Part shown: in pieces, positions 9,464-45,626 of the stretch
Layout: the number at the start of each line of letters is the position of its first letter
How positions within the stretch are numbered: the first letter of the stretch is position 1
NCBI GenBank assembly: GCA_009789175.1
Contig: CP046866.1
Span: 868,001-932,000 of the forward strand
Reading direction: 5' to 3'
Length of the DNA stretch: 64,000 nucleotides
Source: Salinibaculum litoreum
Lineage (GTDB): Archaea > Halobacteriota > Halobacteria > Halobacteriales > Haloarculaceae
The notes under the pieces: generated by a model
What the model was told of the DNA's origin: nothing
The model's input: only the letters and a program-made list of their open reading frames with translations
The model's database searches: none
Made by a program: the position numbers and the translations under genes

Positions 9464-9513
9464 TCACATCATTTAAATCGGAACCTCAGATGGCTATCAC
9501 TCCCGCGCTTACG

Positions 9514-9526
9514 CGAAGTTTTTAGA
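9514..9526 (+). promoter_or_regulatory. Possible TATA-type promoter element for the second helicase gene
   Basis: This is the only gap of any size in the first operon. An AT-rich GAAGTTTTTAGAC lies about 45 bases before the ATG at 9568, and a second AT-rich stretch (CATTTAAATCGG) lies near 9470. Either could let the helicase and HKD genes be transcribed separately. Weak evidence. Confidence 0.3.
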
Positions 9527-9567
9527 CGCCCCCGTTGTTATCGCCTTATATCGGTTTACTTGACAGA

Positions 9568-13653: not shown

Positions 13654-14083
13654 TAGCCTGGGATATTTCATCGGGTACACACTCCACCACGCACGACGTG
13701 TCGCAATCGTGACGCCGTGGCTGAGTAACGTTCAGCTCCGCTTCCCCTTGAACGATCAACTCGATGCTCGCCACATGCGACTTCTCGACGCACTCGAGCA
13801 GTTAGAGGAGACTGATGTAACGCTCATCGTCCGTGAAGGCGAGGATCACAATGATTTCATCCGGGACCGCCTTCCTGAGGGTGTGTCACTCCTTGCTGTC
13901 GACGGTCTTCACGCTAAGGTAGTCGTCTGTGACGAATTTATCTATCTCGGCTCGGCCAACATCACGCGTGGCGGTCTGAGTATCAACAGGGAAGTCTGCG
14001 AAATAATCGAAAACGAGTACGAAGATGCTGGCGAATACTTGGAGCGCGAGCTTGATATCCAGTATTCGACTGAGGATCAATAG
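13625..14083 (+). CDS. Phospholipase-D-like single-HKD protein, DpdK-like
   Basis: Start set at the ATG at 13625, which has a GGTGA ribosome-binding sequence 7 bases upstream; in-frame ATGs at 13598 and 13523 would give longer forms. The 152-residue product has one complete HKD motif, LHAKVVVCD...GSANIT, with His near residue 96, as in PLD-family nucleases that dimerise to bring two HKDs together. DpdK of the Dpd cluster and DrmC of DISARM are such proteins. It is the last gene of the helicase operon, overlapping the helicase by 29 bases. Candidate nuclease effector, or a DNA-end-binding subunit. Confidence 0.8.
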   Translation: MVQAFSLTSDSLGYFIGYTLHHARRVAIVTPWLSNVQLRFPLNDQLDARHMRLLDALEQLEETDVTLIVREGEDHNDFIRDRLPEGVSLLAVDGLHAKVVVCDEFIYLGSANITRGGLSINREVCEIIENEYEDAGEYLERELDIQYSTEDQ

Positions 14084-27208: not shown

Positions 27209-28137
27209 TGCCGTGTTGAATAGCGATCTAATCGACGGTTGTCACGGGTTAGAAGGGCGAAGCCGAGGAAATCGATTCTGGCTATGGAAGTTGATCTCCT
27301 CGACTTCGTTGAGCAGTGTCGGCAGCTAGTCAAACAAGCGTTGGGAAAGCACGCGGGCGAGCCCGCCAGCGGCGGGTTCGCCCGCTGGAAGCACGTCGTT
27401 CTCCATTGTTTCCGGCTCGAAGACGGCCACAGCTACCGTGAAACACCGAATCGGCTACAGTACATGACCGAGATTTGTGACGCACTTGGCCTAGATCCGG
27501 ACGATATGCCTGACTTCACCACACTCTACAAATCGTTCGACCGGCTGGAAATGTGGGTCTGGCGGGCGTTGCTGCGCGTTTCCGCGCAGCAACACCCGCA
27601 GTCTGGCCACGCTGCACTCGACAGCACGTTCTTCGACCGCCGCTCCGCTTCGTCGTACTACCGCCAGCGGTCAGGAAGTAACGTCCAGACACTGAAAGTG
27701 ACGACACTAACCGATAGAGAGTCTCTTGCTGTTCTTGACGTACATATCTCCGCCCGGTGGAAACACGATACGAAGACCGGGCCGCAGGTCGTCCGCCGGA
27801 ACGCGGACGACCTGCTATCAGTGGCTGCCGACAAAGCCTTCCACAACTGGATCACGAAATACGAGTTCTACGCACTCGGTGTCGAGCCACTCATCTTACA
27901 GCGTGGATCAAGACCGTTGACGCTAGGACATAACGCGCTCATCCGGGCAAAAGGCTACTCTCAGCGCTGGATGGCCGAAACATCGTATTCGACAACGAAG
28001 CGCTCGCTCGGCGATGCCGTGCGAGCGCTCGGCTGGTATCGACAGTTCCGTGAAATCGTCCTCATGTTCGCCATATCCAACATAGAACCGCTCTGTGAAC
28101 CTCTCTAACCATGACTCAGCATCTATTCAACACGGCA
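27209..28137 (+). mobile_element. IS5-family (ISH1-group-like) insertion sequence, 929 bp
   Basis: Perfect 15-bp terminal inverted repeats TGCCGTGTTGAATAG (27209-27223; complement at 28123-28137) and an 8-bp target duplication GTTCAAAC (27201-27208 and 28138-28145). One transposase gene. The element interrupts a nuclease gene at codon 8. Confidence 0.9.
27239..28108 (+). CDS. IS5-family transposase
   Basis: The product is 289 residues from a TTG at 27239, or 274 from the ATG at 27284 (MEVDLLDFV). DDE residues can be placed at HAALDSTFFDR, at RNADDLLSVAADKAF, and at the Glu of WMAETSYSTTKRSLG, which is the usual signature of haloarchaeal IS5-type transposases. The N-terminal 80 residues hold a helix-turn-helix-like region. 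Intact and probably functional; it could also act on the 127-bp MITE at 19435-19561, which shares its terminal repeat. Confidence 0.9.
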   Translation: MSRVRRAKPRKSILAMEVDLLDFVEQCRQLVKQALGKHAGEPASGGFARWKHVVLHCFRLEDGHSYRETPNRLQYMTEICDALGLDPDDMPDFTTLYKSFDRLEMWVWRALLRVSAQQHPQSGHAALDSTFFDRRSASSYYRQRSGSNVQTLKVTTLTDRESLAVLDVHISARWKHDTKTGPQVVRRNADDLLSVAADKAFHNWITKYEFYALGVEPLILQRGSRPLTLGHNALIRAKGYSQRWMAETSYSTTKRSLGDAVRALGWYRQFREIVLMFAISNIEPLCEPL

Positions 28138-29753: not shown

Positions 29754-30989
29754 ATGGCTGATGTCGACGGGTCACTCGCCACTGAAGCCGACTTAGATGC
29801 TGACGATGTGGTAACAGTCGCAAGCCTCAACGCAGAGATTGCCAGCGTTATCGAGGCCCGTGCCGACCTAAATCACGACTACGTCGTTGGCGACGTCTCA
29901 GACCTGTCCGAATCCAACGGGCACGTCCATTTCGATTTGGTCTATGAGGAGGCGTCGATACACTGCGTACTCTTCGGCTTTCGCCGCAACGGCGCGAGTA
30001 TCGAGCCTGAAGAGGAGATGCAGGCAGCAGTCCGGGGCGAACTCTCGTACTACGAAGAGCGTGGCTCGTGCTCGCTGCTCGTCACCGACGTTGTTGATAT
30101 CGGTGAGAGCGAGTACAGTCAGGTATACGAACAGAATCGTCAGCTACTCGCAGAACATGGGCTGTTGGCAGACGAACGCAAGCAGACGCTACCGGATCTG
30201 CCGAGCACAGTCGGTCTAGTGACATCCGCGGACAGTGCTGCCAAAACTGATGCGGTGACTGCAATCCACGACTGCTACCCAGATGTCGACATCAAACTCC
30301 AGCATGCTACTGTTCAGGGCCCAGATGCGCTGCAGGAACTGATGGGCGGTATCTCGGGACTTGACGACGATGCAACGGTTGACATCATTGTGGTCACTCG
30401 TGGTGGCGGTGCCGACAAAACATTGCGAGTCTTTAATGAAACCCCGCTCTGCCGTGTTATCGCCGGAACTGAAACGCCAATCGTTGCGGGTATCGGCCAC
30501 GAAGATGACCGGACGTTGGCTGGCGAGGTTGCTGACCATCGTGTAATGACGCCAACGGAGGCCGGCAAAATTGTTCCCGAGCGAGCGGCGAAAGAACAGG
30601 AACTGTCGCGACTCAGCACAAATTTGAAGAGCGCCTACGAGACAGCAGTCGAGACGCAACTGGCTGGCTTCGGAACTGCTCTCGATAATGTCTACGAGAC
30701 GGAGATCACGACTCATTTACAGAATCTTGAGGCATCACTTAGCCACGCAACGAAGCGACAGGTAGAAACGGAACTGTTGAACCTCCAAGCCCAACTCAAT
30801 GGTGCGTACGACGCGGTAGAGCGGAAGAAAGAACACGAGGAGGTACTCGCCGAGACAGTCGAAACGGTCCGAGAAGAAGCGACTGCGAACGCGCAAGCGG
30901 AGGTCGAAGCCACTCGACGGCGGTACCGCCTGCTTCTCGTGGCGTTGTTCCTCTTGGCAATCCTGTTGTTTGTTCTGTTTGGACTCTAA
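29754..30989 (+). CDS. xseA: Exonuclease VII large subunit with C-terminal membrane segment
   Basis: The 411-aa product has an N-terminal OB-fold (DYVVGDVSDLSESNGHVHFD), the catalytic domain with VVTRGGGA near 215, the GIGHEDDRTLAGEVADHR motif near 245, and a long coiled-coil C-terminus as in XseA. Exonuclease VII degrades single-stranded DNA to oligonucleotides and needs several XseB subunits. The last 22 residues (LLLVALFLLAILLFVLFGL) form a single hydrophobic helix, a tail anchor that I do not associate with bacterial XseA. Start ATG at 29754. The xseB reading frame follows 2 bases later but carries a frameshift. Confidence 0.85.
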   Translation: MADVDGSLATEADLDADDVVTVASLNAEIASVIEARADLNHDYVVGDVSDLSESNGHVHFDLVYEEASIHCVLFGFRRNGASIEPEEEMQAAVRGELSYYEERGSCSLLVTDVVDIGESEYSQVYEQNRQLLAEHGLLADERKQTLPDLPSTVGLVTSADSAAKTDAVTAIHDCYPDVDIKLQHATVQGPDALQELMGGISGLDDDATVDIIVVTRGGGADKTLRVFNETPLCRVIAGTETPIVAGIGHEDDRTLAGEVADHRVMTPTEAGKIVPERAAKEQELSRLSTNLKSAYETAVETQLAGFGTALDNVYETEITTHLQNLEASLSHATKRQVETELLNLQAQLNGAYDAVERKKEHEEVLAETVETVREEATANAQAEVEATRRRYRLLLVALFLLAILLFVLFGL

Positions 30990-31316: not shown

Positions 31317-33698
31317 ATGATTTCTGAGAGTGAATTGATGGAATCTGTCGAATTCCCCGTCGATCTATCAGAGGCTGACACGGGCGCAGTGTTGTTCTAT
31401 ATTGCCGGCCAGGTTCCACTACCGGTTGAGGACTTCTCTAGGGACTGCTGTCAGACTCAGAGTGAAGTGAGGGATATTTTGCAGAGTAGGTTCCAAAACG
31501 AGGTGAAGATCGACCAGACCGGGTTCATAAGTTTGACACAGGCCGCTTCGAAGCCCCTTCTCACAGAGGCGAGCCCTATATTAAATAAGGCGAAAGATGC
31601 TGAGAGCCGGGGCAAACGATATCATGATGATGGCAACAGCGAAAAGGCGGCTAAGCAGTATCGGACCGCTGCTATCCTCTTTTCTGGAGTGAAAAATCGA
31701 CTCACGACGGCCGGAGATGTCTCAGATAGTCTCACAGAGCGGGTCGCAGAAGTCAGCAAAACCCACGACAGGATTCAAAAAGAATTGGCCGAAGACACTG
31801 TCACTCACCGCAAAATGCTCGCACAGCACCGTGAGAACGAAGGTGATGACTCCGTGCAATTAGACGACTATGATGAAGCTGCCGAACACTTTGACGATGC
31901 TCTTCTCCTCTACAAGGGGGCAAAAGAGGCCATTGAAACATACAATGAAAGCCGCTTTTTCTCATCCAGTGAGCCGATAGATTCGAGCGAAGTCGACCGT
32001 CTCGCTAATGCGGTGAACCGGAAGGTTCGCAACGCAAAGGGGCATGCTGAGGAAACTCCTGAGACTGAAGAGACAAAACTGAATGACAAAACAACTGAGG
32101 GCAACTCTCAGACTCAGAGCGAAATAGATGATGAAATCCAGACTGATGACGACCCAGATTCCGATGGCATAGATGAGGATGCTGGAAGTGCGCTGTCGAA
32201 AGAAAATGTGATTGGCAACATAAAGCAGTACGTCGATGAACACGATAGCATTCCGACATGCAAAGAGATTGCCAACATATCCTCTGAGACTGAAAAAGAG
32301 CTTCTCGCACATTTCGACACATGGAACAGTGCACTCGAAACTGCGGATATCGATAAACAAAAACGGCTAATCGACGAATTACAAGACATTTCAGAAGAAG
32401 TTAGCGTCCCGCCTAGCGTCGGGCAAGTTGATGAACATAGTGTCTACACCTCCGAGATATATCTCGACGAATTTGGTTCTTGGGCGGACGCAATAACTGC
32501 AGCTGGTCTCAGAAATGTATCGCGAAATCCACCTAAAGAAAACCTCTCGACTGAGGAGGAGATGAGTCAGACACTGCAGCGACTAGACGAGGAAACTGAT
32601 GTGTTCCCGATGATGAACGACGTTCGCGAAAAGACAGATTACACTCCCTCGGAGTACAAATCTGAGTTTGGATCGTGGAACGATGCACTCGTCGCTGTGG
32701 GTATTGATAAGCAGGAACGTCTCTTAGAAGAGATACGTCGTGTCAGAAATATCGTCGGTTCTCGACCGAGCGTCTTCGAACTTTACACACACAGTTCTCT
32801 TTCGATGGGGGAATTTACGAAGAATTTCGAGGACATCGGTGAAGTCCTTGACCTCGCACTGGGCGATGAGGTGTATAACGAATCCCCGTCTGAGGGCGAG
32901 CACCCTTCTAAAGAGGAGGACAAAACTAGTAGTAGCAACACTTCCACTGACTCTGATGAGGAAACCTCTGAAGGGGTCGAATCGTTAGCCACCTCAAATC
33001 CAACACGTCAGGACTATCTTGAGGCCATTCGGTTCGTGGCTGACTCACTTGAGACAGCTGTGAAGTCAGCTGACATCCGTGGTCAGACACCGTACTCGGT
33101 GAATGAAATTACACAAGAGTTCGGAACATGGCCGGCGGCACTCAAGGCAGCAGACATCGACAATGAAACACGATTGCTGACCGAACTTCGTCGTGTCGCA
33201 GACAAATTAGGTCATCAGCCGTCGACAACAGAAATGAATGAACACGGCCATGTAAGCGCAGGTCTGTACCAGATCTATTTCAGGTCGTATACTGAGGCGG
33301 TTGACCAGGCATTCAATGATGATCAAGAAAGCGAGAACGAAATCCCCTCTCAGACTATCTCTGTCACAACGACTGTCAGTGCGATAGAAGAGGATAGTCG
33401 ACTTGATCAACCCATAGTAGTTCAGGTAATCCAATCCTCGACGGTGAATGGGAACGTCAAGGACGCCAATTTGCGGGTTGAAGATATTGATGGGAATCAA
33501 ACGTGGCTCAACATCTGGAGCAAGCACGCTGTCGACATCTTGTGGGAGACTGGTCACTGGTATGTACTCCTGCAGGCTCGGGGTCAATACTGGACAAACA
33601 GTGATGGGGAGACTGGTCGCAACTTGAGTTCCACGAAGGATTTGCTGGTAGAGAGCATTGGTCCTGGTCGTCCAGACGTAGAGACTGTGGTCAGATGA
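31317..33698 (+). CDS. 793-aa protein with six homing-endonuclease-associated repeats and C-terminal OB-fold
   Basis: The N-terminal 80 residues look like a winged helix; residues about 90-220 are helical hairpins (KRYHDDGNSEKAAKQY; EAAEHFDDALLLYKGAKEA) of TPR/MIT type. After an acidic linker, six repeats of about 50 residues follow (about 297-680), e.g. RLIDELQDISEEVSVPPSVG ... FGSWADAITAAGL. They match the repeats of the protein at 20062-23745. The last 120 residues form an OB-fold (LRVEDIDGNQTWLNIWSKHA). Probable DNA-binding scaffold. It precedes the DpdA-like operon by 120 bases on the same strand. Confidence 0.8.
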   Translation: MISESELMESVEFPVDLSEADTGAVLFYIAGQVPLPVEDFSRDCCQTQSEVRDILQSRFQNEVKIDQTGFISLTQAASKPLLTEASPILNKAKDAESRGKRYHDDGNSEKAAKQYRTAAILFSGVKNRLTTAGDVSDSLTERVAEVSKTHDRIQKELAEDTVTHRKMLAQHRENEGDDSVQLDDYDEAAEHFDDALLLYKGAKEAIETYNESRFFSSSEPIDSSEVDRLANAVNRKVRNAKGHAEETPETEETKLNDKTTEGNSQTQSEIDDEIQTDDDPDSDGIDEDAGSALSKENVIGNIKQYVDEHDSIPTCKEIANISSETEKELLAHFDTWNSALETADIDKQKRLIDELQDISEEVSVPPSVGQVDEHSVYTSEIYLDEFGSWADAITAAGLRNVSRNPPKENLSTEEEMSQTLQRLDEETDVFPMMNDVREKTDYTPSEYKSEFGSWNDALVAVGIDKQERLLEEIRRVRNIVGSRPSVFELYTHSSLSMGEFTKNFEDIGEVLDLALGDEVYNESPSEGEHPSKEEDKTSSSNTSTDSDEETSEGVESLATSNPTRQDYLEAIRFVADSLETAVKSADIRGQTPYSVNEITQEFGTWPAALKAADIDNETRLLTELRRVADKLGHQPSTTEMNEHGHVSAGLYQIYFRSYTEAVDQAFNDDQESENEIPSQTISVTTTVSAIEEDSRLDQPIVVQVIQSSTVNGNVKDANLRVEDIDGNQTWLNIWSKHAVDILWETGHWYVLLQARGQYWTNSDGETGRNLSSTKDLLVESIGPGRPDVETVVR

Positions 33699-33818: not shown

Positions 33819-34295
33819 ATGTCTATCTTGCTTATTCAGGGATGCTCCAAGTCTAAGAACGCCCCCGGAGAACCTGTTGAGGCCCTCGATTTATACTCCG
33901 GATACTTCTTCAAGATTATCAAAAAAGCCATACGTGACGGCGATTTCAATAAACGAATCGACATTTGGATTCTATCAGCGAAATACGGGCTAATCGAGGA
34001 TGAAACCGAGATACAGCACTATGATCGACGGATGGATTCTAAGCGCGCAGCAGAACTTGCCCCGCAAGTCTCGGAAGATTTGGAACATAAGGGTGTGGGT
34101 GAGTATGACACTGTTGTTGTGAACGTCGGGAATGACTATCGTGATGCCCTCTCCGGCTTAGAAGCCTTAGAAAGTACAGATGTACATCACATTGATGGGG
34201 AAGGGATTGGTGTGAAAGGTCACAAATTAAAACAAATTATCCGTGGTGACTTCTCTGTGCCCCAGAAAGCAACCTCTGAAAAGGAGTCGGTCTAA
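33819..34295 (+). CDS. DUF6884-like protein linked to the DpdA-like enzyme
   Basis: The 158-aa product opens with LLIQGCSKSK, then LYSGYFFK, ILSAKYGLI and EIQHYDRRM, the conserved order of DUF6884-type domains. The layout parallels the archaeosine-synthase core seen in the gene at 41930-43933 (PCSQKK ... SGMYGPVP ... YDYV), so I read the two as distant relatives; here the KPYxxSxxH part is absent. It sits 2 bases before the transglycosylase gene and is surely co-transcribed with it. It may modify the inserted base or help DpdA recognise DNA; neither is shown. Confidence 0.7.
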   Translation: MSILLIQGCSKSKNAPGEPVEALDLYSGYFFKIIKKAIRDGDFNKRIDIWILSAKYGLIEDETEIQHYDRRMDSKRAAELAPQVSEDLEHKGVGEYDTVVVNVGNDYRDALSGLEALESTDVHHIDGEGIGVKGHKLKQIIRGDFSVPQKATSEKESV

Positions 34296-34297
34296 GT

Positions 34298-35539
34298 ATG
34301 GCTCAAACCCACTCTACGCAATCGCTCGATTTCGATATTGATTCAATTACAGGTGATGCCAGAGCTGGCCAACTCATCATCAACGACCAAACGCTCGAAA
34401 CCCCGAATCTCTTTCCAGTACTCAACTTCTACGCTGGGGGAACTCAGCGGAGTGTCTACGGTGGTGGCGTCCATCGGACGATAAAGGAATTCATGATTGG
34501 TGCTGACCGGGTTGGTACAGACCCGCTGTCTGAATATTTTGATGCAGCGATGACCTCCGTGTCGTCGTTGACTGACTACAATCTGACCCGAGAGCGCTAC
34601 GAAGACTATCTTGAGACACCAATCAAAGAACGAGAACTCTTCGAACCATTCTCTGGCCTTGTTTTCGCTGACTCCGGTGGTTTCAAATTCCTGAATAGTG
34701 ACGAGATGGACGGTAGCGACTTTGAAATGGAGATGAACCAAGAGACTGTCTTCGACATCCAGCAATCACTGGGAAGCGATATCATCGTAAACCTCGATCA
34801 TCCGATTGCGCCGGACGATGGTCACGAGGAGAGGGTCGAAAAGGCGAGACAAACAGCCGACAACATACATGAATTTCTCAGTTTGTCCCGTGATTTTGAG
34901 GGGGCACTCTATCTCACAGTCCACGGCTACAATTATTCAATGATTGATGAATTTCTGGACGTTCTCACCGACGAAGTTCCCGAAGGCGTGATTCGGGAGG
35001 GATTCGATGGAATCGCTCTCGGAAGCCTGGTGCCAAAGAAGGACAACCGTGGTGCGTTGATTACTGCAGTTTCTGACTGTCGGGAGGTAATGGCTGACTG
35101 GGGAATCTCTGATTGGCCGTTGCACGTATTGGGTATCTCGAGTCGTGCTATTCCACTACTCGCAGCACTGGGTGCTGATACATTCGATTCCAGCACGCAC
35201 CTCCACAACGCCATCAACGGCAAGTACAATTACTCTATGATGGAGAGTGTCCCTATCGACGATGTTGACTTCAGTAGGTGTGACTGCCCTGTCTGCCAAT
35301 CCGATGAATTAGTCGATAGAATGAAAGGGAATGCGGAATACCAGAAGGATATACTTGGTCCGGTTGCGATGCACAACTTGATTATACAGAAACGGGAACT
35401 CGCAGAGATCAGACGGTGCATTCACGAAGAGGACACGAATGCGCTTGTGGACTACTTTGAAGATCGGTTCAGTCGAGACAAGACTATGAGACGCTACGCA
35501 CATCAGGTCGTCAACGAATCACTTGGAGGGTACTTCTAA
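34298..35539 (+). CDS. dpdA: DpdA-like DNA/tRNA-guanine transglycosylase
   Basis: The 413-residue product has the TGT fold signature: FADSGGFKFLNSDE with the proton-transfer Asp near 125, NLDHPIAPDDG, LTVHGYNYS, ALGSLVPKK, and GADTFDSSTHLHNA with the nucleophile Asp near 296. A zinc site CxCxxC (CDCPVC, near 328) plus a downstream His (AMHN) is complete. It lacks the C-terminal PUA domain expected of the archaeal tRNA enzyme and differs strongly from tRNA TGT. DpdA enzymes exchange guanine in DNA for the 7-deazaguanine preQ0, a base archaea already make for archaeosine. Flanked by a DUF6884 gene and a GHKL ATPase with overlapping starts. Confidence 0.8.
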   Translation: MAQTHSTQSLDFDIDSITGDARAGQLIINDQTLETPNLFPVLNFYAGGTQRSVYGGGVHRTIKEFMIGADRVGTDPLSEYFDAAMTSVSSLTDYNLTRERYEDYLETPIKERELFEPFSGLVFADSGGFKFLNSDEMDGSDFEMEMNQETVFDIQQSLGSDIIVNLDHPIAPDDGHEERVEKARQTADNIHEFLSLSRDFEGALYLTVHGYNYSMIDEFLDVLTDEVPEGVIREGFDGIALGSLVPKKDNRGALITAVSDCREVMADWGISDWPLHVLGISSRAIPLLAALGADTFDSSTHLHNAINGKYNYSMMESVPIDDVDFSRCDCPVCQSDELVDRMKGNAEYQKDILGPVAMHNLIIQKRELAEIRRCIHEEDTNALVDYFEDRFSRDKTMRRYAHQVVNESLGGYF

Positions 35540-37095
35540 TGAAGAAAGCACCAAAAGTCAACGAGGTAAACGAGTTTCTTGAGATAGCGAGCGACTTCGA
35601 GAACCCTCTTGAGGTAATTCGTGAGTCGCTGTCGAACGCCTACGACGCTGGTGCCTCAAACGTCGAGATCCGGATCAGGAGTCGTCAGGGTGGCTCTGAT
35701 ATCATCATCGAAGACGATGGGTGTGGGATGAACGAACGCGATTTGGAATCGTTTTTCGACCTCGGTAACTCGCGAAAAACGGATGCGATTGGCTACAAGG
35801 GCCATGGCACGAAGATTTTCTACAAGAGTGACCGCATTGAGGTCACGACTGTCAACGACGGCACGAGCTACCGTGCGGTGATGGAGGATCCCTGGGAGAA
35901 ACTCAATAACAAGGAATTGCCTGAATACGATCTTACGTCGAATGACGTCCGCCGCGGGAACTCAGGAACGAAGATTCAAGTTACGAACTTCCGGTCCGGA
36001 CACGGATTCGATGCCGAGGAGCTGACGTACAACAAAATTCACCACTATCTGAAGTGGAAGACCATCGCTGGGTCGACGGCACACTACTTCGGCGATGGCC
36101 AGCGGGAAATGGATATTACGGTCACGCTGGATGAGGATATCGACGATTCACGCGAGTCGTTGGAGACAACGAACCGACTGGAGTTTCCTGACGAGCAACT
36201 GGAGCCCAGTGACGGTGAGTACCCTGCTGAGCGGATGTGCAAACACTACCCCGCTAGGGAAATCGAAGTCGAGTATGATGGCGGAGAAACACTCCTTCAG
36301 ATGGTCGGGATGGTTGGTGGAAAGGAGACGCGCAACGAATTGCCGACGTATGGACGTCACTCCGCACAATTCGGAATCTGGTTCGCGAAAGATCATATCA
36401 AGGTTGAACGCCTTAACGAGGCAATTTCTCACGACAACGAGTATATTCACTTCTTGTTCGTCGCGAACTGCCAGGATATCGAACTCTCTGCGAACCGTGA
36501 GACGATTCGGAACAAGGCCAGCCCTGTGTATAAGGCCATCCGGGAGGAGGTGGAGTACTACCTCTCGAAGGTGACCCAAGACCCATGGTTCAAGGACTAT
36601 CTGGAAACACGGAAGGAGGGTGAACATCGTCGACGGTCGGCCAAACAAGAGTCGTCGCTGAAAGACCGGAGAGAACGTGTCGAGACGGATGGATTCGCTC
36701 CAGAAAACCAAGCTGAGGTACTTCTGGGACTCGAACGTGCGTCACGGCAGGCCAACACCCGGTCCTTTACCGTGGAAGACTTTGACCCAGCAGCTGACGT
36801 GCATGCAATCGTCCGCCAGAACGGGAAACTACGGAATGCCGCTGTGCATCGTACACTCACGGAGTTATTCGAGGAAGAAGTCCCTCTAGAAAACACGGAG
36901 CTAGCGATTTGTTGGGACAAAGGAGACCCCGCAGAGCTCAGCGAGTATGAACGAAACGGGTACTTCGGTGGTGACGTGTCCTTGGACCTGGATCAAGGTG
37001 GACTTCGCTATCAGAACCACGACGATCAGTTCATAGAAATCGTCGAAGTGAAATCACTGCTCGAAACTGGTGCAGTGCCTCTCGCTAACGATTAA
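35539..37095 (+). CDS. GHKL (Bergerat-fold) ATPase, MORC/Hsp90-like
   Basis: The 518-aa product has the three ATP-site boxes of GHKL proteins: RESLSNAYDA (Glu/Asn, near residue 30), EDDGCGM (near 60) and GYKGHGTK (near 86-93). A transducer-like domain follows, ending near residue 330 (QDIELSANRETIRN), then a charged helical region and a C-terminal beta domain. MORC, MutL and Hsp90 ATPases use this fold to clamp on DNA or protein. It starts on the last base of the dpdA stop, so translation is likely coupled. An IS inserted 40 bases after its stop now separates it from the DUF262 gene. Confidence 0.8.
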   Translation: MKKAPKVNEVNEFLEIASDFENPLEVIRESLSNAYDAGASNVEIRIRSRQGGSDIIIEDDGCGMNERDLESFFDLGNSRKTDAIGYKGHGTKIFYKSDRIEVTTVNDGTSYRAVMEDPWEKLNNKELPEYDLTSNDVRRGNSGTKIQVTNFRSGHGFDAEELTYNKIHHYLKWKTIAGSTAHYFGDGQREMDITVTLDEDIDDSRESLETTNRLEFPDEQLEPSDGEYPAERMCKHYPAREIEVEYDGGETLLQMVGMVGGKETRNELPTYGRHSAQFGIWFAKDHIKVERLNEAISHDNEYIHFLFVANCQDIELSANRETIRNKASPVYKAIREEVEYYLSKVTQDPWFKDYLETRKEGEHRRRSAKQESSLKDRRERVETDGFAPENQAEVLLGLERASRQANTRSFTVEDFDPAADVHAIVRQNGKLRNAAVHRTLTELFEEEVPLENTELAICWDKGDPAELSEYERNGYFGGDVSLDLDQGGLRYQNHDDQFIEIVEVKSLLETGAVPLAND

Positions 37096-37135: not shown

Positions 37136-38247
37136 TGCACTGTTGAATGGAAGACGGCGCTAGTATTGGAATAATGATATTCAGCTTTCCACCAGTAGCG
37201 GTGCTCTCTCAGCGGATTCTTAGACCGGACGATTCAATTTCAGCCGCCTTGTGCGGTGACCAAAACATCAGTTTCACAAGATACCGCACGAAGTATGAGG
37301 TGGACGATGGCGACGCCTCTCCTCGATACGTCCAGAGAAGGGGAGCAGGCGGCGAGCTCTAACTCGCCGCCTGCGTTAGGTTATGTACGATGCACTTGCG
37401 CGTGAGCTCCCGGAATTGGCCGTGCCAACTCCGGGAGCGGATCTCGTCGCCGTCGTCCTTCAACATCGCAAACACCGTCTCGCTCATTGACCGCTGATTG
37501 TAGACATCGTCGTCAATTCGAGCGTTGTGAGCTTTCTTGAGCGCGTTTTGCTCGCAGTGTTTGATCACTGGACGCGTTGATGCATCACGACAAGCTTCCC
37601 TGAGTTCGCTCCATGAGTACATCTTGTCCGCCAGCAGTGCCTGCAGGTCTTCGGCGTTTCGCCGAAAGACCTGCAGCCCAATATGGCCGTCATAGGCTTT
37701 CTTCGTCGTGAAATGAGCGTCCATGATGGCCAGTGACTCCGTGTCGACGAGCAGCGTCGTCTTCATGGCATTGAACGAGTAGCCGACACGATTGCGGTAG
37801 TGTGAGCTGGCTTGATCGCGCTGGAAGCCGCTGGCGTCAATCGACGCCGTTCCCGACAGCCCCGCCTGCTCCGCTGACCGGCGGAGCAGGCGGCGCAACT
37901 CTTGCATCGGAAATTCACCGTCCCACACGCTGAACGACGTGAAGTCAGGCGATTCCTCAAGGTCAAACACGTCGAGGATTCCCGGCATCTCGTTCAGGTA
38001 GTCTTCGAACTGCCGGAGCGGTTTGTTGACCTCCTCTTTGAGCAAGAGTAGCGCGATCTTCGTGGCCTTATCGTACCCGTCGTCGCCGTCGGCGACGGCG
38101 GGTACGTCTGACTCTTCTACGTGGGTCGTGGCAAACTCGTGAAATGCCTGTGTAAGGTTCCTGAGCCGTCCCATACCACCAGACGGCGTCCAAATCCCCT
38201 GAAATCAGCGATACAATCCGCAGAGGGCGTCAGCATTCAACGGAGCA
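37136..38247 (-). mobile_element. IS5-type insertion sequence, 1112 bp, with 8-bp target duplication
   Basis: Ends TGCACTGTTGAATG (37136 on) and, as complement, TGCTCCGTTGAATG (ending 38247), 12 of 14 bases matching. Flanked by CAAGATGT at 37128-37135 and 38248-38255. The transposase is on the minus strand. It lies between the GHKL and DUF262 genes without breaking either. Confidence 0.85.
37359..38174 (-). CDS. IS5-family transposase
   Basis: The 271-aa product has DDE residues at ASIDASGFQRDQASSHY, at ALLADKMYSW, and at SMSETVFAMLKDD, with NAMKTTLLVDTESLAI between them as in haloarchaeal IS5-type enzymes. It is intact. It resembles the transposase at 27239-28108 in layout but not closely in sequence, though the terminal repeats share TGTTGAAT. 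Its GC-rich codons stand out from the surrounding genes. Confidence 0.9.
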   Translation of the reverse strand: MGRLRNLTQAFHEFATTHVEESDVPAVADGDDGYDKATKIALLLLKEEVNKPLRQFEDYLNEMPGILDVFDLEESPDFTSFSVWDGEFPMQELRRLLRRSAEQAGLSGTASIDASGFQRDQASSHYRNRVGYSFNAMKTTLLVDTESLAIMDAHFTTKKAYDGHIGLQVFRRNAEDLQALLADKMYSWSELREACRDASTRPVIKHCEQNALKKAHNARIDDDVYNQRSMSETVFAMLKDDGDEIRSRSWHGQFRELTRKCIVHNLTQAAS

Positions 38248-38504: not shown

Positions 38505-41500
38505 ATGATTGATGTGAGTATGCCGAACGATTCGCTTGAGGAAGTAGCCTCGAAGATTCTCACGTACACTGATGACAAATACAAAGAGGAATACCCCAGC
38601 ACTCACAAATACAACGTCCCGACCCGGCTAAAACAGCTTGAGCAGCGAGTTGCAGGCTTTGACGACGATGACCCGGTTTACGACATCGATACCGAATCTG
38701 TCCACGAGTATCTGATCCGGCTTGACGACGATGAGCTGTTTACATCAAGTGCCTTTCTCGGACATATACTGAACCCTCCAGTAAGCAGCTTAGTCATCCC
38801 AGATTACCAGCGTGACTACTCTTGGAAGACTCCAAATAATCGTCGCTATTGGATCGACATCAAAACCCTGTTGCACAGCATCACCGATCAAGGCCCACAG
38901 CAACGAGAGAAGTACATGGGTTCGGCATATCTCTCCGACGAATCAGATAATCTCGAAATCATTGATGGCCAACAGCGGGTCACAACATCCTTATTGCTAT
39001 TGTTAAATATAAAACATTATTTCGACTTGCTCCAGCCGCATGTGGTGGAGAATGCGAATGAAAATTTCAAAGCCTTCTTTAACCATTTCACCGGCTCTGA
39101 CCATCTCGAACAGATGCTGTATCCCTCTGGAGGCGAGCCCGTCTTGAAGCCAAACGAGAGCGATGAGAGCTACTTCAATGCTATCTTTGCTAAGGAAGAC
39201 GTGCTCCTTGAGCAGTACTTAGACGACATTGAGACGGCGGAAGGACCTGGCGGTGTAATCGGTGATGAAAAATTACTGCGAAACGAACTCGGATATCCCC
39301 CCCATGAGGTGGATGAGTTATCGCCTGTCCCTGATGGAAAGAATTTCGTACAAAAGCAATCGAATCGGTTGCTTCGGGAAGCGTTCACATTCTATCGGGA
39401 GCAAATTGGCGAGCTAATCAACCAGCAACGCGTGCTTGGGGAAGATAGGGAGCTAACGGTAAATATCATTACTGCTAGTTCTAACCGAGTGCATCTCCAG
39501 GCAGGTACCTCTCCAAGCAGTGATGATCAGTTAGCCAATGTTCCTGTCGCTGATGCTCACGTCTATTATCTTTCTGGTGAAGGAGATTCCAGCGATGGGT
39601 ATATGGAGGAGCTGTCTGAGGAAACATATCAGGGTACTACTGATGCCTATGGAAAATTAGAGGTTGATTTCGAAACAGCCCCGGATGACGGGGGCAGGAT
39701 AGTAGTCAGGAGCGGTTACGAGACGGAAACAATTAATTTCTCTGCTATTTCTGAGCTAGAACCGGACAGGATCTCGATTGTTTCCCAGACTGAGAACAAA
39801 CTAATAGTCGCTGCTCGAAACGATGAAGGTGGACAACCGGAGACGACCATTGAAGTCAATGGGACTAGTAACGAAACTGATGAAAATGGGGTTGCGGTCT
39901 TCAATCTTAATAATATCGACCCCCTGGCCACTGATGGGAATAGCGTTTATCAAATCCGGCTTTCCGATGGGACAACTCGGGATGTCGCAAGTGACTCAAT
40001 AACTGCCAGTGAGTATTGGCCTATCACTTACGGAGACTTCGAGAATCCAGTAGAAAAGTCCCGTATCCTTATCAACCTCGTTTTCGTGTTGCTGCATTCA
40101 ATCCGAATAGTGTATGCGGAGTTTGGGATTCCAAACAAACAATATAAAATAGATATCTTCCAGTCGCTTAACGATAGAGGGGAAGAGCTCGACATCCGAG
40201 ATATTATTCGGGCTAGGGTTATCGCAAAAGAGGTGGACAATGTTGGTGCTTGGAGAGAAATTGACGACCGGTTTGATGGTGAGCCTGAGGATATCGAGGA
40301 CTTCCTAAAGCAGTACATTACTGCTGAACAGGGGCTAACTAAGCCCGATAGCGACGATGTCAAATCGTTATTCGCGCTTCATGAAGCCACGGTTGGTGAC
40401 GCAGAGTCTATTTTAGTAGGCGATGTAAATGACGCCGAAACCAAGCTGGCCGAACTTGAGACGTACTCCAAGCGATACAAAGAAATCAGCCAAGCAACGC
40501 TCCCCCCAGCCAGCTCAGGGGAGATACAGGGATTTACACGAAGTCATGCGTCTGGAAGTCAGAACCCGAGTCAGGAAGAGCAAAATCTGCGGGAGGAGTG
40601 TGAGACGTTATTTGGCTATCTCAACGAGGTTGGCAAGGTTTGGCAACCGTTCGTTCTTGGACTTTATTATGACTTTGCGCAAACAGATGGAAGGGGAAAG
40701 AAGTTTAACGACGTACTGAAAGTTCTCGTCAAAATTATCTATCGGTATACCCCATACGGGGAAGGTATTTCCTCGTCCATCGCGAGAACGTATCTCCACG
40801 ATATGGCCAAAAACCTTGTTGACGAGCAGCTTGACGTGAACGACTCAGACGACATCATCAGGAGACTCAAGTCCGATCTCCCGGATGACTTGGAATTGGA
40901 GGAAGTTGCCCGCCGGTTTGCGACACGACGAAACTGGCAGTCGGACACGGTCAAGTCTTTGTATGCACGCCACATTGACATCAAGCTCAGTCAGCAGGCG
41001 GAGGAGGGTCAATATATAACTCGGCAGTTCGAACGCACCAGCGAAGATGAGTTGACCATTGAGCATATTTTCCCTTCTTCGCTGGGACTAAACGCCAACA
41101 GTGAGAGTCCGAAGCGATGGCTTGAGGTCTATTTCTACCCCGTTAACAGCGATTCGCTGGAAACGTTGGTTGACGAACTGGAAGTCGATGGTGACGGTCA
41201 AGCCGATGATGTCGAAATGCTGCGCCAGAAATTCGTGAACGAGATTGGTAATATGATTCCGCTCATTCACGCGGAAAATGCCTCGGTGTCTGACCGGATG
41301 TTCTCGAAGAAGCTCACCTACTATTTCCTTGTCGGAATGACCGAAATGAAAAATACGGACGAATACCTCTACAACGAGCACTCCTTAGCTGACCTTGTCC
41401 CACTCATCGAGGCGTTCGTCGATAAGGCTGGCTACAGTGAGGACGTCGCAGCCAGCATCTTTGGGTTGTTAGTAGAAAGTGGGGACACAGCACAGCAAGA

Positions 41501-41855
41501 AACGATTTCAGATGCTTTGATACAGTACGATATCGATGCAGATGCCATCTCATCAACCGAGCTGACAACGGACGTTGACTCCAATTCCACAGTCAAAGAC
41601 AAAATTCGGTCTATGCTCGAACGCGACACGATAGATGAAACGGACAAAGGAACCCTAAGCATCGTGAAAACCTACAACCACAAATGGACTGTCGAAGATA
41701 CTAAAGATCGCAAAGAACATCTCATTCGTGAGATGCTGAAAACGTTAGCCTTCGAAGACGAGTACGACCCGAGCGAAGATGATGAGGCAAACTTTGGTAC
41801 TGACCTCCAGACAGCAATCGACGACGACTACGAGAAACGAATTGATCTTCGCTAA
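38505..41855 (+). CDS. DUF262-DUF1524 (GmrSD/DpdB-like) protein with an internal Ig-like insertion
   Basis: The 1116-aa product begins with a DUF262 (ParB-superfamily) domain: IPDYQRDYSWK near 100 and IIDGQQRVTTSLLLL near 152. It is interrupted at about 318-500 by two Ig/carboxypeptidase-regulatory-like units (VPVADAHVYYLSGEG ... DAYGKLEV; ETTIEVNGTSNETDENG), then resumes (FQSLNDRGEELDIRDIIRA). A DUF1524 HNH-type domain follows with LTIEHIFPSSLG near 850 and GNMIPLIHAEN. GmrSD enzymes of this build cut modified DNA using NTP. DndB/DpdB proteins share the DGQxR motif and act in DNA modification. Which role applies here is open. ATG at 38505; ATG at 38520 is possible. Confidence 0.8.
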   Translation: MIDVSMPNDSLEEVASKILTYTDDKYKEEYPSTHKYNVPTRLKQLEQRVAGFDDDDPVYDIDTESVHEYLIRLDDDELFTSSAFLGHILNPPVSSLVIPDYQRDYSWKTPNNRRYWIDIKTLLHSITDQGPQQREKYMGSAYLSDESDNLEIIDGQQRVTTSLLLLLNIKHYFDLLQPHVVENANENFKAFFNHFTGSDHLEQMLYPSGGEPVLKPNESDESYFNAIFAKEDVLLEQYLDDIETAEGPGGVIGDEKLLRNELGYPPHEVDELSPVPDGKNFVQKQSNRLLREAFTFYREQIGELINQQRVLGEDRELTVNIITASSNRVHLQAGTSPSSDDQLANVPVADAHVYYLSGEGDSSDGYMEELSEETYQGTTDAYGKLEVDFETAPDDGGRIVVRSGYETETINFSAISELEPDRISIVSQTENKLIVAARNDEGGQPETTIEVNGTSNETDENGVAVFNLNNIDPLATDGNSVYQIRLSDGTTRDVASDSITASEYWPITYGDFENPVEKSRILINLVFVLLHSIRIVYAEFGIPNKQYKIDIFQSLNDRGEELDIRDIIRARVIAKEVDNVGAWREIDDRFDGEPEDIEDFLKQYITAEQGLTKPDSDDVKSLFALHEATVGDAESILVGDVNDAETKLAELETYSKRYKEISQATLPPASSGEIQGFTRSHASGSQNPSQEEQNLREECETLFGYLNEVGKVWQPFVLGLYYDFAQTDGRGKKFNDVLKVLVKIIYRYTPYGEGISSSIARTYLHDMAKNLVDEQLDVNDSDDIIRRLKSDLPDDLELEEVARRFATRRNWQSDTVKSLYARHIDIKLSQQAEEGQYITRQFERTSEDELTIEHIFPSSLGLNANSESPKRWLEVYFYPVNSDSLETLVDELEVDGDGQADDVEMLRQKFVNEIGNMIPLIHAENASVSDRMFSKKLTYYFLVGMTEMKNTDEYLYNEHSLADLVPLIEAFVDKAGYSEDVAASIFGLLVESGDTAQQETISDALIQYDIDADAISSTELTTDVDSNSTVKDKIRSMLERDTIDETDKGTLSIVKTYNHKWTVEDTKDRKEHLIREMLKTLAFEDEYDPSEDDEANFGTDLQTAIDDDYEKRIDLR

Positions 41856-41929: not shown

Positions 41930-43933
41930 TTAGTCCCGAGTGACGCCATCGGCTGAGCTATCGAGGTAGTCGAGGAGTTCCTGAACGTTGCTGTTACGGA
42001 AATACTCCGTTAGCTGAAGCGCCTTCGGGTCTCGTGGCAAGGTTTCCCCACGGCCGTAGCGGTCGAATGCATTTTCGAGGACCTGCCGGTACGTTTTGCT
42101 CGTCACGTAGCCCAATATCGTATCGTACTGTTCCCCGTAGGCTTCTAAGAAATCGACGGTTCGATCGGTAACCAACTCTATCTGCTCTTTGTCCTCCTTT
42201 GCGAGGACGTAGTCATACTCTAAAACGGGATCGGCGCGCTCGCATTCCTGTGGCACCGGACCGTACATCCCCGATATTGTTACTTTTTGAATGTCATCTG
42301 ATCTGGATCCAAGTTTATCGAAGAGGACCGAATGTGTTCGCGACTTCGAATACGGCTTCTTCTGGCTACACGGAATAAACAGGAGTGTGTCTTTGTCGCC
42401 CTGAGGCTCATACGACCGGGTCAGGACGTTGAAATCGCTCGGGTGGTGCTTAAGTGAGATGCGGCGGGAGTTTGTGTCCTTTTCGACGCCTGCATCCCAC
42501 TTTGAGAGCGTCGCTTGATCACTTGTCAATGACGACCCTGGCAAGAGGTCGTAAGCCTCGCGCGCAGCGACATCGTTCCGGAGTTGTTTGTCGCGGAGTT
42601 GTGCCTCCTGCAGTCCTTTTTTGATGTCGTCGTGCTCTCTGGCAAACCCAATCACGTAGTCGAGAAGGTTTCCTTCCTGGATAGCGTCTCGGACACGTCG
42701 CAATTCTTCATTGTATACCTCGAAATTGTGTCGTGCCAGTAACGCGTAGTAGTCACTCTTGATGGGCTCGTCATTTTCTTTGCGCTCTTGACGCTCATCG
42801 TAGGTCAGGTCAGTGTTCAGTTCCTCGAGTAACTTCTCGTAACTGACTCCGTCGTCGCCACACAGAAGGCATTCTGGCAGGTCACATGGGAAACTGCCGT
42901 CCGGACGCAGTTCGCCTGAAAGTTCGTCGAGCTTGTAGTGGCTCCACGACTCAGGGTGTGTGTACTTTTTGTAGCGGGCAGTTTGCATGTGAGTCGAACA
43001 GTCAAACGAATCTACGCCAAGTAGTGAGAGCAGTCCAACTTGCTTGCCCCCAACCCCGAAGACGTGGAGTCCGAGTTCGTCGTCTCTGGCTTCTGGGATG
43101 GCGTCCTTGGCTCCCTGGACGATGTCAACGAGGACGTCCATGCTGCTCCTCAACGGAACTAACGAGCCGACCGCAAACCCCTCAAATGAGCTATCAAGCT
43201 CTAAATCAGCAACTCTCTCGATGAACGTTCCGACGTACCAGTTGATCGTTTCGTAGTCGTGTCCGTGCAATGCAATATAGACGCTCGGTTCCTCACCAGC
43301 GGCTTTCCTTTCACGGAGACGCTCTGCCGCTCGACTGTTGATTTCGAAGTTTTCTTCGAGCCGGGAAGGGTCGTCGAGAATTCGGAGACATTCGACTGCG
43401 CTATCGATACTGCGCTCCATTCGCTCGACTTTCTCCTCTTCCTTGAGATCGGGCGGGATCGGATAGTCAAGAGTCGCGACGATATCTGCTCCGAAATCGA
43501 GTTGTAGTCCCAGTATACTCTTCGGGTCGGTGTATAGTCCCCACTCGTTTGGCGTCCCACCTTTCTCTGGTGCTTCCCCGAACGTATTGGAGTTCATCAG
43601 CTTGAATCCGCCAGAGTCGATGAACACTGGTGCATTCAGGTCCTCGAAGTGTTCGTAGAAGGTTCTCGGACGCCAGAATTCATTGAGGTTCTCCGGCGAA
43701 ACTCCGTAGTCTGTAAAACTCATCGTCTGGAACATGACTCCCTGCAGGTGATCCTTTGAGATGAGCTTCTCCCGCATTCTTCGCCAGACGCCGCCAGACT
43801 CGTGCGTAGTTCCACCGATAAGGTTGACGACGGGAAAGAGGGCTGGTGTTTCGACATCTCCATGTGAAGTCTGTAACTCTCCCAACCGCCCGTAGCCATC
43901 ATCTCCGACTGTCTTCACACGGAAACTCATCAA
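41930..43933 (-). CDS. DpdA-like transglycosylase fused to an archaeosine-synthase (ArcS) core domain
   Basis: Residues 1-400 are a complete TGT-type catalytic domain: FIDSGGFKLMNS (Asp near 104), ATLDYPIPPDL, IALHGHDYE, AVGSLVPL, VDSFDCSTH (nucleophile Asp near 309), and zinc ligands CDLPECLLC near 349 with a later His. Residues about 515-640 match the ArcS core with PCSQKKPYSKSRTH (near 520-533), an exact fit to the PCx3KPYx2Sx2H motif of archaeosine synthase, then SGMYGPVPQECE and YDYV. No PUA tRNA-binding domain follows. ArcS acts on preQ0 already placed in tRNA; a TGT active site plus ArcS motif without PUA suggests both steps on another substrate, probably DNA. Convergent with the DUF262 gene. 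Confidence 0.8.
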   Translation of the reverse strand: MMSFRVKTVGDDGYGRLGELQTSHGDVETPALFPVVNLIGGTTHESGGVWRRMREKLISKDHLQGVMFQTMSFTDYGVSPENLNEFWRPRTFYEHFEDLNAPVFIDSGGFKLMNSNTFGEAPEKGGTPNEWGLYTDPKSILGLQLDFGADIVATLDYPIPPDLKEEEKVERMERSIDSAVECLRILDDPSRLEENFEINSRAAERLRERKAAGEEPSVYIALHGHDYETINWYVGTFIERVADLELDSSFEGFAVGSLVPLRSSMDVLVDIVQGAKDAIPEARDDELGLHVFGVGGKQVGLLSLLGVDSFDCSTHMQTARYKKYTHPESWSHYKLDELSGELRPDGSFPCDLPECLLCGDDGVSYEKLLEELNTDLTYDERQERKENDEPIKSDYYALLARHNFEVYNEELRRVRDAIQEGNLLDYVIGFAREHDDIKKGLQEAQLRDKQLRNDVAAREAYDLLPGSSLTSDQATLSKWDAGVEKDTNSRRISLKHHPSDFNVLTRSYEPQGDKDTLLFIPCSQKKPYSKSRTHSVLFDKLGSRSDDIQKVTISGMYGPVPQECERADPVLEYDYVLAKEDKEQIELVTDRTVDFLEAYGEQYDTILGYVTSKTYRQVLENAFDRYGRGETLPRDPKALQLTEYFRNSNVQELLDYLDSSADGVTRD

Positions 43934-44522: not shown

Positions 44523-45626
44523 TTACCCCATTCTATCGAGGGCATCTTGTCGATCTTCGACCGGCGTCTGATCGTATTTCATTGTCGTCTGAGGTGACCT
44601 ATGCCGTAATTGTGCTTGCGCTGCAGCCAAGTCTTCTTCTCTCGTCATGTAGGTTCCCACTGAGTGACGAATTGAGTACCAACTCATCTTTCTGTTTTCT
44701 GTCTCGATGTCTGCGATATCGCAGAGCCGCTCTATCACGGTTTTCAGCGAGTGCGAGCCGTAGGGATTGTTTTCACGGGTCAGCCAGATAGCGCCACTTC
44801 CGTCGTATTTAGAATATAATTCCCGTTCTTCGAGCCATCTGCTGAGTATATCCGCTGTCTTTTCTCTGAGACTGACAATCCAGTTATCCCGAGATTTTGC
44901 ACTCTCCTCTTTAGGAATTCGCAACACTCCATTTTCTGTGTCGACCCACGAAGTGATTGCGCGCTCTACCTCGATGGGCCGAAGTCCAGCATCGAGCGAT
45001 GTCCAAACGAGCGATGGTATCTTCCACCCGTTGGCCCGACTCCAATCTTCTGGGCTGATTTCTGACTTTGGCTTTGAGAATCGCTGCGCCAGATGTATTT
45101 TCCACTTTTCTCGTTCACTTGGAGCAAGATTCGAATAGGAAGGGATGGTACCGTACTCTAGCGCAGCATCTCGGACTTTCCCTCGCTCTTCTCGAGTTAG
45201 GTAATCACGGGGCTGTGAACTGCTGTTCTCAGAAAATCTAATCGAGGGATCCCAGTTTTCAACACCATGTTCGCGGTGTCGCCATTTGAACAGCATCTGG
45301 ACTGACTTTTGACAATTTGCTTTGTGCGTGTTGCTGTAGTCTGTCTGTGCCAGATGCCGCGTCCATTGGTCCGCGTGACTGGGTTTGATATTCGCTGTAT
45401 ACCCGTTCTCCTGTTCCCAGACCCAGCGATAGAACTGGTCCATCCGGTAGGACCGTGGCTTGACTGTTCCAAACGCGTAGCCTTCACCCTTTTCGGGTCT
45501 CTTGCCGATCGAGAGCAACCATCGGAGACAGTCTTTTCGTTCGTCTTCGTAGTCGAGTAGCTGACGCGGATTAAGGTATTCTTCTGCAACCTCCGTTACG
45601 ACAGGTAACTCTGAAATCTCGTCCAT
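44523..45626 (-). CDS. Tyrosine recombinase (XerC/phage-integrase type)
   Basis: The 367-aa product has an N-terminal SAM-like core-binding domain (residues about 20-140) and a C-terminal catalytic domain with the Arg of SLDAGLRPIEVE near 213, SIRHSVGTY (H-x-x-R equivalent) near 318, LRHRSPQTT (His) near 342, and the catalytic Tyr in MKYDQT near 351. It would catalyse site-specific integration or excision. Its start is about 210 bases from the tRNA-Glu remnant, the classic arrangement for an archaeal island. A CDS of full length with all catalytic residues, so possibly still active. Confidence 0.85.
   Translation of the reverse strand: MDEISELPVVTEVAEEYLNPRQLLDYEDERKDCLRWLLSIGKRPEKGEGYAFGTVKPRSYRMDQFYRWVWEQENGYTANIKPSHADQWTRHLAQTDYSNTHKANCQKSVQMLFKWRHREHGVENWDPSIRFSENSSSQPRDYLTREERGKVRDAALEYGTIPSYSNLAPSEREKWKIHLAQRFSKPKSEISPEDWSRANGWKIPSLVWTSLDAGLRPIEVERAITSWVDTENGVLRIPKEESAKSRDNWIVSLREKTADILSRWLEERELYSKYDGSGAIWLTRENNPYGSHSLKTVIERLCDIADIETENRKMSWYSIRHSVGTYMTREEDLAAAQAQLRHRSPQTTMKYDQTPVEDRQDALDRMG

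Follow-up and report, generated by a model that had tools for sequence, protein, structure and literature searches.

Why does an ATPase of the GHKL class share one compact operon with a tRNA-guanine transglycosylase (TGT) paralogue in a halophilic archaeon? The operon lies in a 64,000-nucleotide stretch of the Salinibaculum litoreum genome (assembly GCA_009789175.1, contig CP046866.1, positions 868,001–932,000), which we call the window and to which coordinates refer unless stated otherwise. It consists of three open reading frames (ORFs) on the forward strand, encoding a 158-residue DUF6884 protein (33819–34295; Pfam PF21818, E 4e-15), a 413-residue TGT paralogue with no match to the PUA domain (34298–35539; PF01702, E 3.4e-25), and a 518-residue GHKL ATPase (35539–37095; HATPase_c_3, E 2.6e-13). 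In the ORF list of the window, 2 bases separate the first two genes, and the second and third share 1 base. An earlier note, made from the sequence alone, had read these genes as an operon joining a DUF6884-like protein, a DpdA-like transglycosylase and a MORC-like GHKL ATPase; the operon and the assignments of the first and third genes were borne out. The triplet is a real and conserved module, a variant of the Dpd and BRIGADE systems. We consider it rather probable that it is central to the half that marks self DNA in a 7-deazaguanine restriction–modification island, in which the ATPase, a former nuclease, acts as the ATP-dependent partner of the TGT in the place of DpdB.

The conservation of the triplet was assessed in 292 genomes of the haloarchaeal class, which were searched with the GHKL protein and with the TGT, the latter being counted as present at E ≤ 1e-40. 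An intact GHKL gene was found in 31 genomes and the TGT in 31, and these were the same 31 genomes (Fisher p 1.6e-42). A DUF6884 gene lies upstream of the TGT in all of them, and the order DUF6884–TGT–GHKL on one strand is kept in 31/31, so the neighbourhood search proposed in the earlier note came out in favor of the triplet. The spacing between the TGT and GHKL genes was −89 to +2 bases in 30 of the 31; in the exception, G291, the start codon is assigned too far upstream. Because the order is identical in every carrier, the triplet does not reflect chance or a local oddity. A further genome, G039, has the GHKL gene as broken fragments only; it was left out of the neighbourhood set, but was included in the DndB search described below. 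Scanning named genomes with a GHKL profile turned up 64 loci, of which 20 are haloarchaeal and 44 are not. The full triplet was present at 19 of the 20 haloarchaeal loci, the remaining one (L154) being a GHKL fragment, and the named carriers of the triplet, among them Halorubrum lipolyticum DSM 21995, Halorubrum coriense DSM 10284 and Haloplanus ruber, are haloarchaea. On a Haladaptatus plasmid, the RefSeq names of the three products are "DUF6884 domain-containing protein", "tRNA-guanine transglycosylase" and "ATP-binding protein". A wider GHKL–TGT system was rejected, as no TGT or DUF6884 gene lies in the available DNA around the GHKL gene at the 44 non-haloarchaeal loci or on one viral contig, with several of the contigs ending nearby. 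A spread of the TGT beyond Halobacteria was rejected too: in the phylum sample it was found in 6 of 246 genomes (E ≤ 1e-25), every one of which belongs to the same taxonomic order as the genome of the window.

The TGT signatures DSGG, NLD, GxDxFD and CxCxxC...HN, which we take to be the catalytic residues, are invariant or nearly so in 31/31 homologues. The claim of a transglycosylase with all catalytic residues therefore stands, while its identity as DpdA does not, as described below. A second TGT of 667 residues, encoded on the reverse strand (41930–43933), is fused to DUF5591, an ArcS domain with the motif PCSxxKPYSxSRTH (PF01702, E 1.6e-27; PF17884, E 3e-18). This fusion occurs in 29 of the 292 genomes, namely 28 of the 31 triplet carriers and 1 of the 261 others. 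The stand-alone TGT and the fusion share 27% identity (E 3e-45) and match the arcTGT of the same genome at E 1.6e-19 and 2.6e-25; judged by these comparisons, the two TGTs of the window are closer to each other than to the tRNA arcTGT. It had been suggested that the first two genes of the triplet are a split version of the fusion. This is only distantly true, and a recent split was rejected. In a tree of 16 of the 31 stand-alone TGTs, 17 fusions, the arcTGT and E. coli Tgt, the stand-alone TGTs formed their own clade apart from the fusions with support of 99/99. The fusions were joined as one clade in 44% of bootstraps, and hence not with certainty, and the arcTGT and E. coli Tgt sat on very long branches, leaving the root of the tree unsure. 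The stand-alone TGT and the fusion also coexist in 28 of the 31 genomes, and DUF6884 and DUF5591 are separate Pfam families. In genome G237 the fusion is present and the triplet absent; at that locus (L158 12302–15414), the fusion and a DpdJ-like helicase are found with a true Pfam DpdA in the triplet's stead (PF23859, E 1.6e-24). A Haladaptatus plasmid (L180 19509–24208) carries the triplet and two TGT–DUF5591 fusions. A viral origin was rejected as well: among 50,697 phage records, the TGT gave one weak match and the fusion one weak match, and a single distant GHKL locus was found among viral contigs.

When compared with PADLOC, the DUF6884 protein matched PDC-M57A (3.5e-13) and DpdC (2.9e-7), the latter being a partial-length match over residues 16–70. 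Its residues C9, S10, K13, S53, A54, G57, Y68 and D69 are invariant in 20 aligned rows. The earlier note had also lined up the CS-x-K, S-x-YG and YD positions of this protein with those of the small domain in the fusion. Profile–profile comparison of DUF6884 with DUF5591 reproduced this alignment, placing CSxxK, S-x-x-(Y/H)-G and YD in register at E 4.7e-4 and a probability of only 32.5%. Searching PDB sequences with the DUF6884 profile returned two chains, AF0587 (2q07) at E 0.16 and one of no relation at E 0.97, and no others. In the available excerpts of one paper, DUF6884 is given as the dpdC domain (PMC11888242). We propose that the protein is a small domain of the DpdC/YaaA/ArcS kind, for processing the nitrile of DNA-bound preQ0. 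One genome has a second DUF6884 gene (L160 5422–6099), whose surroundings are unrelated and contain no TGT.

Residues 6–370 of the GHKL protein were modelled as a GHKL + S5 module (pLDDT 80.7). The best structural match was MORC3 (Z 20.1, root-mean-square deviation 3.6 over 295 residues, covering residues 6–356), with SMCHD1 and MutL also among the top matches (Z 19–20), and the best PDB sequence match was MORC2 (E 1e-6). The ATP motifs are invariant in 31/31, and we conclude that the protein is a MORC-type GHKL + S5 transducer ATPase with intact ATP motifs; its N-box residues are E29 and N33. The remainder, approximately residues 385–518, forms a C-terminal domain. Motifs in this domain were counted in 38 full-length non-haloarchaeal homologues, after 7 of the 45 loci had been dropped as incomplete (outside 490–605 amino acids). 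The E, D, E and K of a PD-(D/E)xK-like motif were found in 38, 38, 38 and 37 of these 38 proteins. In the same four columns, the 31 haloarchaeal proteins gave counts of 0, 1, 0 and 0, showing that the PD-(D/E)xK active site is absent. The C-terminal domain of a Mucilaginibacter homologue was modelled at pLDDT 93. Re-alignment of the top 1000 Foldseek chains ranked EndoMS (Z 6.3 and 5.3), MspJI (3.8) and Cap4 (3.0) first, the last tied with an acetyl-CoA carboxylase chain; we take EndoMS, MspJI and Cap4 to be PD-(D/E)xK nucleases. The haloarchaeal domain resembles a PD-(D/E)xK nuclease that lacks the active site. Taking fold and motif together, the apparent ancestor of the protein is a GHKL + PD-(D/E)xK nuclease, which would have lost its active site on joining the modification side. 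This loss of a motif seen in the non-halophilic relatives looks new. Those relatives (loci L112–L153 and L157) are a widespread GHKL + PD-(D/E)xK-like protein of about 565 amino acids in bacteria and other archaea, for example in Mucilaginibacter pedocola and Arcicella aurantiaca, apparently uncharacterised and with no constant gene context.

The left end of the window (25–14083) is occupied by a Dpd/YprA-like restriction operon, encoded on the forward strand. Its first gene encodes a YprA-like helicase with a DUF1998/MZB domain (25–4101; PF09369, 4.3e-9; PADLOC DruE 2e-32, DpdJ 6e-18). This is followed by a 305-residue protein (4098–5015; homologue in 15/31 neighbourhoods), a 285-residue protein assigned by position (4991–5848; an approximately 280-residue family at that place in 15/31), a DpdH-like STAND NTPase of 973 residues (5845–8766; PADLOC DpdH 1.4e-6), a 246-residue protein (8723–9463; homologue in 15/31), a DpdJ-like helicase of 1372 residues (9535–13653; PADLOC DpdJ 2e-45), and a DpdK-like, PLD-type nuclease of 186 residues (13523–14083; PADLOC DpdK 8e-11). 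The DpdH-like protein was present in 20 of the 31 triplet genomes versus 2 of the 261 others, and the DpdJ-like protein in 21 versus 1. A 1116-residue GmrSD-type protein (DUF262 + DUF1524) encoded downstream of the triplet on the forward strand (38505–41855; PF03235, 1.3e-21; PF07510, 2.3e-8) may be an exchangeable effector; a homologue lies within the neighbourhood analysed in 8 of the 31 genomes. One report, in the part available, describes restriction by a GmrSD-type enzyme of phages whose DNA contains 7-deazaguanine (PMC12137116). Some of the genomes that lack the window types have other candidates nearby, namely a YprA/DpdJ-like helicase (G260, G254), DrmA (G291), GmrSD (G056) and HerA and NurA domains (G254). 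All such neighbours, DrmA, GmrSD, HerA, NurA and other helicases alike, are leads only, because defence islands are crowded. A head-to-tail arrangement of PLD gene and triplet is seen on a Haladaptatus plasmid.

The GHKL protein might itself belong to the restriction side, where, as a MORC-like clamp, it would recognise DNA in modified or unmodified form and give the PLD, GmrSD or helicase effectors licence to act. Prokaryotic MORC and paraMORC proteins have been tied to restriction systems (PMC2292703, in the sections available), the NCBIfam restriction enzyme family BbrUII/HgiDII matches the ATPase part at 6.6e-12, the relatives of the protein look like nucleases, and GmrSD homologues are nearby in the eight genomes above. 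We measured co-evolution as the correlation of pairwise protein distances across genomes. The TGT and GHKL proteins correlated at r 0.92 (n = 31), DUF6884 with TGT at 0.74 and with GHKL at 0.75, and the fusion with GHKL at 0.82 (n = 26). The restriction genes correlated among themselves at 0.76–0.95 (n = 10–16). Between the two halves, the values were 0.32–0.51 (n = 10–17), and for GHKL against the restriction genes 0.34–0.48. The two halves were therefore inherited partly apart, and the ATPase travels with the TGT. This co-evolution of the GHKL protein with the TGT and not with the restriction genes looks new. The ATPase also tracks the TGT one to one and stays when the restriction genes change, and its nuclease motif is lost in 31/31. 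Given this pattern, we regard a role on the restriction side as unlikely, if still deserving of attention, and prefer to place the ATPase with the TGT.

DndB/DpdB (PF14072) was found in none of the 32 genomes searched. The simplest reading is therefore that the GHKL protein fills the place of the ATPase beside the transglycosylase. The ATPase of DpdB serves insertion, according to the portion available of a study on related systems (PMC12839542). A second TGT system was seen on haloarchaeal plasmids, of which three were inspected among seven listed with such a TGT (L179 5916–12043, L181 6992–10076 and L182 6959–10043). In it a different TGT, of 344 residues, precedes a 298–299-residue protein and a gene whose annotation reads BREX ATP-binding protein, and a larger TGT is encoded close by. 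The one BREX-type ATPase tested had a BrxC/D match in Pfam. The larger TGT on L179, the one plasmid tested, carries DUF6884 at its C-terminus (E 1.9e-7) and adjoins queC, folE, queE and a gene taken for queD. This is a real TGT–DUF6884 fusion, and it ties DUF6884 to TGT chemistry. With its BREX-type ATPase, the second system suggests that the ATPase recruited differs among DNA TGTs.

A probable supply of preQ0 is encoded close to the triplet in many carriers. QueC was present in 31/31 triplet genomes (37 copies); in 18 of them, a copy shared a contig with the triplet and lay less than 40 kb away (binomial p 1.6e-19, assuming 3-Mb genomes). In 12 of these 18 genomes the island QueC was the sole copy found, for which insertion of the island beside a housekeeping locus is an alternative; the other 6 had a further copy elsewhere. 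In S. litoreum, QueD, QueE, a 196-residue gene and QueC are found at C1:862256–864768, 3–6 kb upstream of the start of the window at 868001, and a second QueC is found at 2.27 Mb. The names QueD and QueE are based on sequence motifs, and the 196-residue gene between QueE and QueC is presumably FolE, occupying the same place as folE of a haloarchaeal plasmid.

Such a module could in principle act on tRNA or another RNA instead of DNA. Both TGTs of the window score closer to archaeal TgtA than to DpdA in curated models, and the known setting of ArcS domains is the synthesis of archaeosine in tRNA. The genome has a complete arcTGT–ArcS pair elsewhere, as separate, adjoining genes at 2.16 Mb. Neither TGT of the window has a PUA match in Pfam, the distribution is patchy (31/292) and includes plasmids, and the genes are linked to Dpd-like restriction genes. 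We give an RNA target very little credence and retain DNA as the probable substrate.

The closest published system is BRIGADE, described in the accessible sections of a preprint as two YprA-like helicases, a 7-deazaguanine cluster and a PLD nuclease, in halophiles only (Bell et al. 2025, PMC12458937). The system in the window shares most of these features: the host is a halophilic archaeon, a nearby nuclease of one of the two BRIGADE types, PLD or PD-(D/E)xK, is present at 13523–14083 (PLD), and the two TGTs with the upstream preQ0 operon make up a 7-deazaguanine cluster. Two helicases have DruE/DpdJ matches, one of them with DUF1998/MZB, and may correspond to the YprA-like pair. It differs in that the modification half occurs also without window-type helicases and evolves apart from them. 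Since components and host range fit, the locus might be plain BRIGADE with the ATPase as an incidental passenger. A gene that is adjacent to the TGT in 31/31 genomes with its ATPase motifs intact does not behave like a passenger, and the main text of the preprint, in the sections accessible, mentions GHKL, MORC, TGT and DpdA 0 times, while its supplementary gene tables may list the ATPase. We consider the passenger explanation improbable and keep to the ATPase as a working part of the module. With Dpd (dpdA–K), the window shares a TGT, a small protein that may be DpdC-like, preQ0 genes and DpdJ-, DpdH- and DpdK-like restriction proteins; it differs in having a GHKL ATPase instead of DpdB/DndB, a TGT below the DpdA cut-offs, and an additional TGT–ArcS fusion. 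MORC/paraMORC systems likewise set a GHKL + S5 ATPase in a restriction–modification context, but in the available sections they comprise helicases and endonucleases with no transglycosylase named (Iyer et al. 2008, PMC2292703), whereas the ATPase of the window is partnered by a TGT and has a degenerate nuclease domain. A BREX-related capture system, in the portion available, has a TGT in a defence operon without DpdB/DpdC and an NTPase suggested in DpdB's place; it is centred on HerA/PglZ/STAND, and GHKL and DUF6884 are unmentioned there (PMC12839542). Our literature search found no paper that brings together even two of GHKL ATPase, queuine tRNA-ribosyltransferase and defense island. The idea in the earlier note of a possibly new layout, raised because bacterial dpd clusters are not known to include a GHKL ATPase, is supported in that GHKL goes unmentioned in the available parts of the Dpd and BRIGADE texts and that no DpdB relative was found; it needs correcting in that the layout is not isolated, being the modification half of a Dpd-like island of the BRIGADE kind.

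Several other features lie in the window. Two transposase-like ORFs, recognised by reading the sequence (27239–28108 and 37359–38174), stand on either side of the region, with an integrase at 44523–45626; because of these, the island carrying the triplet is probably mobile. An exonuclease VII large-subunit-like protein (29754–30989) ends in a hydrophobic stretch that probably spans the membrane. Two proteins (20062–23745 and 31317–33698) are rich in HNH-associated repeats (PF18780), with 9 stretches in the former and 5 in the latter; the former adjoins a PbeA-like helicase (23766–26249). The window gave no Rfam match and contains no tRNA.

How might the module work? The products of the linked operon would make preQ0 from GTP, and the TGT would swap guanine for preQ0 in DNA. 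The GHKL ATPase would be its obligatory partner, ATP binding closing the clamp on DNA as in MORC and MutL; by opening or loading the duplex, it would enable the TGT to flip a base out, the job ascribed to the ATPase of DpdB in bacterial Dpd. The nitrile would be the next target, converted to the amide by DUF6884, most likely in the manner of DpdC. A further base derived from preQ0 would come from the TGT–ArcS fusion, probably through transfer of lysine on the way to archaeosine. Unmarked DNA would then be attacked by an exchangeable restriction half, made up of YprA/DpdJ-like helicases, a DpdH-like NTPase and a PLD nuclease, or of a GmrSD-type enzyme. A bolder version, which we hold only tentatively, is that a restriction-type GHKL + PD-(D/E)xK enzyme lost its nuclease and became a DNA-opening TGT subunit, a non-homologous replacement of DpdB, and together with the fusion puts archaeosine or a lysine adduct into the cellular genome as a self mark. 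To our knowledge, archaeosine or the lysine adduct in DNA is known only from viruses. According to the available excerpts of one paper, halovirus HVTV-1 might be modified by a DpdA of its host, and viral DNA contains dADG and dG+ (PMC6884629).

Besides the restriction-side alternative, several observations weigh against a self-marking module with an ex-nuclease ATPase. The case that the triplet modifies DNA is drawn from homology and context, not from chemistry. The stand-alone TGT scored 29.4 bits against the NCBIfam DpdA model NF041059, below the cut-off of 200, and had no match to Pfam DpdA PF23859. The window-type DpdJ-like protein is absent from 10 of the 31 triplet genomes, and the fusion from three (G028, G143 and G291). 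A Foldseek search with the nuclease-like C-terminal domain returned nothing at E ≤ 0.001, and Z scores under 8 are modest, so that the nuclease fold of the ancestor is argued from the motif and modest structural scores. Finally, DpdB is possibly dispensable in some Dpd clusters, as stated in the part available of PMC12839542, and a replacement need not exist.

If the proposal is right, a clamp of the MORC/MutL class would be coupled one to one with a TGT, and the ATPase need of DNA TGTs would become testable through a single gene. A restriction nuclease would have been turned into a modification subunit, and cultivable archaea should carry 7-deazaguanine bases in their own DNA. The ATPase is the part of the module worth a bench test.

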